From Lachnospiraceae bacterium (GTDB lineage Bacteria > Bacillota > Clostridia > Lachnospirales > Lachnospiraceae), in contig JAJQDE010000027.1 of the NCBI GenBank assembly GCA_021202335.1, positions 1 through 64,000 of the forward strand: a DNA stretch of 64,000 nucleotides, in the 5' to 3' direction. The notes under the pieces were generated by a model, which ran no database searches, was not told the DNA's origin, and saw only the letters and a program-made list of their open reading frames with translations. This document shows positions 1 to 5,546 of the stretch, piece after piece; the first letter of the stretch is position 1, and every line of letters begins with the position of its first letter. Made by a program: the position numbers and the translations under genes.

Positions 1-4970
<4,970 letters not shown>

Positions 4971-5124
4971 CTCACATCTCCTCCTTGTTAAGCTCATTCT
5001 CCGCAGCCTGATTTTATTGTGCGCTGCGGTTCTATATGGTCTGCGTTTCCAGTATATCCGTATCCATAAGATTTTTCAAGGCAATTCCTGATTTTTGCAT
5101 GAATTTTTTCGCCCGAAACAGAAA

Positions 5125-5152
5125 TTGCGGAATGCATAATTGCACTCCGCAA
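5125..5152. promoter_or_regulatory. Inverted repeat upstream of the BspA-like gene and of the holin-like toxin
   Basis: TTGCGGA-a-TGCA-taat-TGCA-c-TCCGCAA. Confidence 0.45.
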
Positions 5153-5257
5153 AAATTTCCGGTAAACTTTATTTATGGTGTTGTCGTAACGGCAGGCGGT
5201 TGTCCCTCCACACGGAGGGTTATGCCCTCCGTTCTGTAAAGAAAGGGGGGATAGCCA

Positions 5258-5344
5258 ATGGTTACATATGCTGATTTATTTCAGTTCTGTTTACTAATTG
5301 TTGCTATTGTAAGTCTTGTTTACAAGATTTCACATAAAAAATAA
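5258..5344 (+). CDS. Holin-like type I toxin (28 aa): MVTYADLFQFCLLIVAIVSLVYKISHKK
   Basis: ATG at 5258 with G-rich RBS (aaagaaaGGGGGGa, 5241-5251). The peptide matches the remembered pattern of putative holin-like toxins (short N-terminus, one TM helix, Lys-rich tail) and ends in a hairpin terminator. It is below the ORF-track size cutoff. Confidence 0.72.
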   Translation: MVTYADLFQFCLLIVAIVSLVYKISHKK

Positions 5345-5421
5345 CCGCCCAGTCTCCAGCTTCGCGGTTATTTTTTAACTGACAAATCGGGACAGCCGTC
5401 TATCGGCAACACCTCTTTATA
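5336..5421 (-). ncRNA. Putative antisense RNA antitoxin overlapping the 3' end of the holin-like toxin
   Basis: Minus-strand TTGACA (5455-5450), 17-nt spacer, TATTAT (5432-5427); the predicted transcript ends at the shared terminator hairpin 5338-5374. Confidence 0.55.
5338..5376. terminator. Bidirectional Rho-independent terminator
   Basis: AAAATAACCGC (5338-5348) pairs with GCGGTTATTTT (5364-5374), with A/T runs on both sides. Confidence 0.75.
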
Positions 5422-5426
5422 TACTC

Positions 5427-5455
5427 ATAATATACCCGTCAGCCCTTTATGTCAA
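5427..5455 (-). promoter_or_regulatory. Sigma70-type promoter for the antisense RNA
   Basis: TTGACA-N17-TATTAT on the minus strand. Confidence 0.6.
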
Positions 5456-5546
5456 GGATTCCGGTAAACAAGATTTTTTCATTCACTCACCTCCCCCTCT
5501 TATCCCGCATATTTTAAAGCAGAATAGTCCGGGAGGATTTTCGGCT

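Follow-up and report, generated by a model that had tools for sequence, protein, structure and literature searches.

The 3'-overlap layout is common to the toxin-antitoxin systems txpA/RatA, bsrG/SR4, yonT/SR6 and Fst. In bsrG/SR4 of Bacillus subtilis, the two genes are convergent and SR4 base-pairs with the 3' portion of P1, the main helix of the bsrG mRNA. Thereby the sequestration of the Shine-Dalgarno (SD) sequence is extended from 4 to 8 bp and decay of the mRNA is promoted (PMC6562991). In contrast, RatA does not change the structure of the txpA ribosome-binding site (RBS), and SR5 likewise leaves the RBS unchanged (PMC6562991). According to the passages on txpA/RatA that we consulted, TxpA has 59 aa, the two RNAs overlap by 75-120 nt and RatA acts via RNase III decay (PMC4147584, PMC3531473, PMC6562991); a long-range helix is not found in these passages.

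Long-distance interactions between the two ends of a toxin mRNA occur in hok/Sok and aapA/IsoA. There, the interaction keeps the full-length mRNA inert, and trimming of the 3' end activates it (PMC6733600). The par locus of pAD1 (RNA I/RNA II), which encodes Fst, has a bidirectional terminator, an SD within a leader stem and repeats in the 5' regions of both RNAs. These repeats are direct and make the par RNAs complementary, and a helix protects the 5' end of the mRNA (PMC7472228).

Here we compare these systems with a locus of a Lachnospiraceae bacterium from the gut. It lies in the window, the whole stretch of 64,000 nucleotides that was analysed, in an assembly of 2.74 Mb. Judging from its sequence and from its relatives, we give a probability of about 70% to the locus being a chromosomal type I toxin-antitoxin system of the Hol_Tox kind, in which a helix between the 5' and 3' ends of the toxin mRNA (5'-3' helix) and an antisense RNA compete for control of the SD.

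The closest known mechanism would be that of bsrG/SR4. The genes are convergent in both cases, and an antisense RNA directed against the 3' part of the main helix is also the mechanism we propose here. However, complementarity spans 100-140 bp in bsrG/SR4, compared to about 84 nt at most in our locus. The window locus scores 13.0 bits against the Rfam family BsrG (RF01412), below the cut-off of 55, and is thus no match to that family. In the parts of the bsrG/SR4 literature that we consulted, there is no mention of a copy of the bsrG leader at the 5' end of SR4.

The preliminary description of the window had labelled the locus TxpA/RatA-like. This label stands in part. A convergent 3' overlap, a hydrophobic toxin peptide and a strong SD are indeed shared with txpA/RatA. 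The toxin mRNA also has a conserved 5'-3' helix, of which the antisense RNA would bind the 3' strand. Since SR4 alters the RBS structure and RatA does not, bsrG/SR4 would be the better mechanistic match. In Rfam searches, no family reaches its gathering score in the window, RatA included. At the locus none comes close at E up to 10, and RatA is absent at that level from positions 5100-5520.

Putative toxin gene, promoters and predicted antisense RNA

An unannotated ORF of 28 codons with the hallmarks of holin-like toxins had been proposed at positions 5258-5344 of the plus strand. The ORF is present as quoted, from ATG through 28 codons to TAA. Its peptide, MVTYADLFQFCLLIVAIVSLVYKISHKK, passes the cut-off of the Pfam family Hol_Tox (PF16935) in an HMM search (26.1 vs 23.3 bits), and the match covers profile positions 1-33 of 34. 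A PHROG holin profile matches weakly (0.0066). Pfam describes the protein alone; the RNA architecture lies outside the family definition. The peptide contains no proline and hence not the PXXXG motif of Fst and Ldr, which sets it apart from par (PMC7472228).

Nine closely related loci show how the ORF evolves. Pairwise substitutions fall on codon positions 1, 2 and 3 in the ratio 190/54/337. Synonymous changes make up 230 of 422 codon differences, compared to 21% for random single mutations. Because this pattern is coding-like and so many differences are synonymous, we consider the ORF a real gene. It is preceded by the SD region GGGGGGATAGCC (5245-5256, plus strand), which contains GGGGGG at 5245-5250 and is conserved as GGRGGGATRGCC in close relatives.

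The best sense promoter match between 5131 and 5180 is TTGCAC-N17-TAAACT (5140-5168, plus strand), the predicted toxin promoter. By eye, promoters at the same position are TTGTCT-17-TAAACT in L054 and TTGTCA-17-TAAGCT in L052, two of the relatives. The sense promoter is weaker than the antisense promoter TTGACA-N17-TATTAT at 5455-5427 of the minus strand, where a near-consensus promoter had already been noticed; 11 of its 12 bases agree with the consensus. A scan of 1.8 kb found four promoter-like sites with at least 9 of 12 bases (1.1 expected), and this one is the best. Its -35 core TTGAC is invariant in the nine close loci while neighbouring bases have diverged. Across 84 loci, the best downstream promoter on the minus strand averages 11.9 bits; within that stretch the plus strand reaches 7.4 bits on average and shuffles reach 6.6 bits. 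The minus-strand promoter exceeds the 95th percentile of the shuffles in 73% of the loci, the plus strand in 10%. We rejected a chance origin of the antisense promoter on the basis of the invariant TTGAC in the nine loci and the enrichment across loci.

Around the stop codon lies a hairpin with a U-run on both strands (5335-5376), a predicted bidirectional terminator. On either strand the sequence folds into the hairpin (z -3.8 and -3.6), which is kept in the nine relatives. All nine retain the antisense U-run, as do 57 of 60 loci of the main subfamily. The sense U-run is also found in 9/9 loci of the close subfamily, but only in 8/60 of the main subfamily. Hence, termination of the antisense RNA is probably the conserved function of the hairpin. 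In the main subfamily, where the sense U-run is mostly absent, the toxin mRNA has to extend across the antisense gene. In the subfamily of the window, a strong sense U-run precedes the 3' element discussed below, so a long mRNA would need read-through.

Promoter and hairpin together predict an antisense RNA of about 84 nt (~5337-5420, minus strand) without annotated coding function. This is the putative antitoxin, and it agrees with the ~85 nt RNA ending in a shared terminator that had been suggested. The locus thus has the layout of a type I system: a gene for a small hydrophobic peptide, a promoter on the opposite strand and an overlapping predicted transcript, all conserved in relatives. 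The type I reading of the preliminary description is supported by the Hol_Tox match of the peptide, by the enrichment of the antisense promoter in about 84 loci and by the retention of the antisense U-run. Comparison with relatives makes it well supported, and the pair almost certainly is a toxin-antitoxin system that belongs to a known family. Both the peptide gene and the antisense RNA are easily overlooked, and finding them would improve annotation.

Predicted pairing between leader and 3' region

The most informative part of the locus is an inverted repeat of the leader and the 3' region, which the preliminary description had missed. Its 5' arm (5177-5206, plus strand; GGTGTTGTCG outer, GGCGGTTGTCCC inner) lies at the beginning of the mRNA predicted for the toxin. 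It pairs with the 3' arm GGGACAGCCGTCTATCGGCAACACC (5389-5413, plus strand). This 3' element lies beyond the terminator and is the complement of the 5' region of the antisense RNA, whose 5' half would target it. Because the leader start and the start region of the antisense gene form an inverted repeat, the two RNAs have near-identical 5' sequences: in its 5' region, the antisense RNA nearly copies the leader of the toxin mRNA. The repeats of par are direct and make its RNAs complementary (PMC7472228), whereas the outer repeats of our locus are inverted, and therefore the RNAs share 5' sequence. As for direct repeats of the DRa/DRb type, which cross both genes of par, a short direct similarity between the RBS GGGATAGCC and the 3' element GGGACAGCC is visible by eye only.

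The leader and the 3' region of the window form a duplex of -42.6 kcal/mol. Dinucleotide shuffles reach -28.9 +/- 3.9 kcal/mol, and none of 100 is as good. In 67 of 84 loci the duplex beats all shuffles. The stretch used in this test included promoter bases, so we tested the transcribed helix separately. Without being prompted, RNAalifold joins leader and 3' element of the nine close loci in a helix of 17 bp. The helix pairs in 95.4% of the cells, compared to 34-50% when the partner is slid by 1-3 columns. Three pairs have changed on both sides, and none of 500 shuffles reaches the covariation score. The window adds compensatory and wobble pairs of its own (GGUUGUCCC with GGGACAGCC). Sequence and comparison with relatives show to which family the peptide belongs, as well as the two promoters, the terminator and the conserved helix between leader and 3' element.

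Which strand is under selection to pair? We counted isolated mismatches between the arms in a DNA alignment that favours neither strand. There are 118 mismatches that form G-U pairs on the plus strand, 22 that do so on the minus strand and 54 transversions, numbers that are inflated by the shared descent of the loci, which are not independent. Counting distinct sequence contexts leaves 64, 20 and 50, respectively. Separate subfamilies agree in the direction of the bias: a distant PF16935 subfamily has 108 plus-strand and 19 minus-strand G-U mismatches, and in 18 of 29 loci there, leader-3' pairing is better than in each of 100 shuffles. Because the mismatches are biased towards plus-strand G-U, selection appears to act on the toxin mRNA and to maintain its pairing; the antisense RNA would compete for the 3' element without wobble pairs.

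Could the repeat arise without any pairing role? If it were left over from a duplicated promoter or from gene conversion, this would explain why the arms start near both transcription starts and why both promoters are consensus-like. Yet the arms vary between loci and remain complementary, their mismatches show the plus-strand G-U bias, and gene conversion would erase mismatches without a strand bias. We regard such an origin as very unlikely. That the repeat merely echoes consensus promoters was rejected as well, since the pairing columns are transcribed.

In the open papers that we searched, we found no description of this RNA architecture, a 5'-3' helix together with an antisense complement. 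Some relatives, among them L005 and L116, have a diverged or lost leader repeat with the toxin and antisense parts kept. Repeat scores are low in L062, L065, L088 and L091. Relatives of this sort may be decayed copies or may be regulated differently.

A predicted switch at the Shine-Dalgarno sequence

The leader of the window is predicted to hide the SD. An anti-SD segment, GGTTGTCCCTCC (5198-5209, plus strand), shares bases with the 5' arm of the inverted repeat and pairs with 5245-5256 in a helix of 12 pairs. In the leader and in the short mRNA, the predicted probability that the SD is unpaired is 0.000. Between anti-SD and SD lies a hairpin, CGGAGGG-TTATG-CCCTCCG (5212-5232, plus strand; leader fold z -5.1), which is kept with compensatory changes in close relatives.

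In silico, the 5'-3' helix competes with the SD-hiding helix, and the antisense RNA, a perfect complement of the 3' element, would displace the 5'-3' helix. In 68 relatives the median unpaired probability of the SD is 0.008 without the 3' element and 0.193 with the native 3' element. It is 0.018 when the 3' element is shuffled and 0.004 when the stretch covered by the antisense RNA is blocked. Native exposure is higher than the shuffled mean in 57 of the 68 relatives (Wilcoxon P 4e-10). For the window the effect is small: 0.000 in the short mRNA, 0.034 in the long mRNA and 0.016 with a shuffled 3' region. Two conformers of the window are near-equal in energy (-99.5 and -99.3 kcal/mol), and for some relatives, such as L054, the short form is the more open one. 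Since the opening predicted for the window is small, we infer the switch from the relatives. The SD switch is a family-level prediction and a weak one for the copy in the window.

Our model of the locus would work as follows. A weak promoter would produce the toxin mRNA for a 28-aa membrane peptide with a single helix, while a strong convergent promoter would produce the 84-nt antisense RNA that ends in the shared terminator. The leader would hide the SD. In a read-through mRNA, the 3' element would pair with the leader and compete with the SD-hiding helix. Being a perfect complement of the 3' element, the antisense RNA would displace the wobble-containing 5'-3' helix; this would bring back SD sequestration and create a duplex for RNase III. 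If the antisense RNA were lost, the peptide would be made and would damage the membrane.

Such a switch would have the opposite polarity of hok and aapA. Here the 5'-3' helix would open the SD instead of keeping the mRNA inert, and an mRNA trimmed of its 3' element would, according to the prediction, keep or regain a hidden SD. A family-wide switch of this kind, in which the antisense RNA as a leader copy without wobbles outcompetes the leader for the 3' element, is a tentative proposal that we consider possible but doubtful. Since the antisense gene, a covarying helix and the exact bases to mutate are all defined, the control mechanism is directly testable in a laboratory host.

There are other ways to read the same locus. 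The antisense RNA may act solely via the duplex at the 3' end and RNase III decay, as in txpA/RatA, with the 5'-3' helix stabilising the mRNA or protecting its 5' end. Gram-positive type I systems as a rule have the 3'-overlap layout (PMC8167048), the decay caused by RatA and SR5 involves no change at the RBS (PMC6562991), and in the window SD sequestration barely depends on the 3' element. However, in the relatives the native but not the shuffled 3' element alters SD exposure, and the anti-SD segment is part of the strand that the leader contributes to the 5'-3' helix. We consider decay alone somewhat unlikely. It is also conceivable, if improbable, that the 5' end of the antisense RNA pairs with the toxin RBS in trans. 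For the window this pairing reaches -20.5 kcal/mol (shuffles -13.0 +/- 3.1; 10 of 500 as good), and the antisense RNA of pAD1 also binds the initiation region via repeats (PMC7472228). Yet this pairing follows automatically from the leader copy, the repeats are inverted here unlike the direct repeats of par, and pairing with the 3' element gives a longer helix, which is backed by covariation.

Finally, the peptide could be a small membrane regulator, for example ComI-like, whose level is tuned by the antisense RNA. Regulators do exist among single-helix peptides, and the peptide has a weak match to the NCBIfam model of ComI (NF052249). This match reaches 20.7 bits with a cut-off of 55, and the cut-off of the NCBIfam model PepG1 is missed too, whereas that of Hol_Tox is passed. 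Furthermore, tight SD hiding and a strong antisense promoter are typical for toxins, and the loci are patchy and multi-copy, one of them with the toxin deleted and the antisense gene kept. A regulator is therefore a rather remote prospect, and a toxin under antisense control is the reading that we prefer.

Distribution and further copies

The layout is common to about 100 related Lachnospiraceae loci. The named set comprises eighty loci, nearly all from Lachnospiraceae, and a Hol_Tox locus is also present in another family of the order. The closest loci (L050-L056) share 79-86% of the residues over the peptide. Lachnospiraceae is a gut-dominated family, and PF16935 peptides occur in 96 of its 299 sampled genomes. 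In a limited search of the open literature we found no study of Hol_Tox antitoxin RNAs in Lachnospiraceae.

Within the genus, relatives of the peptide occur in 10 of 38 sampled genomes (E 0.01), our own included. Its distribution in the genus is thus patchy, although we see no mobile element beside the copy in the window. The plasmid collection contains no match, a search for Fst-like peptides in phages gave no match, and PADLOC reports none. The phage collections hold weak matches only, and five relatives lie in viral contigs; hence, we see no evidence for a phage-borne copy in the window.

The neighbouring gene (1555-4953, minus strand) encodes a leucine-rich-repeat protein of the DUF285/BspA type. 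Matches to BspA-like sequence occur in L043 and L014 too, close to other copies of Hol_Tox. Among the matches listed near the relatives' loci there are such BspA repeats but no asnB.

Besides this copy, the genome of the window carries three intact Hol_Tox-like loci that belong to another subfamily (MKNQFDFKDMMQFGLFLLALLTFIVLICK and kin), two in tandem (contig C51, L042, 100-189 and 829-918) and one on contig C43 (~47.04-47.12 kb, L044). They have the same layout of leader and 3' element, and the leader-3' duplexes of the C51 pair reach -46.0 and -40.1 kcal/mol. Between the tandem copies, at ~400-720 of L042, is a remnant toxin without its N-terminal half (ending in VALISLLYQIFKDKK and a stop codon). 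Its antisense RNA gene, promoter and 3' element look intact, and the remnant is possibly an orphan antitoxin.
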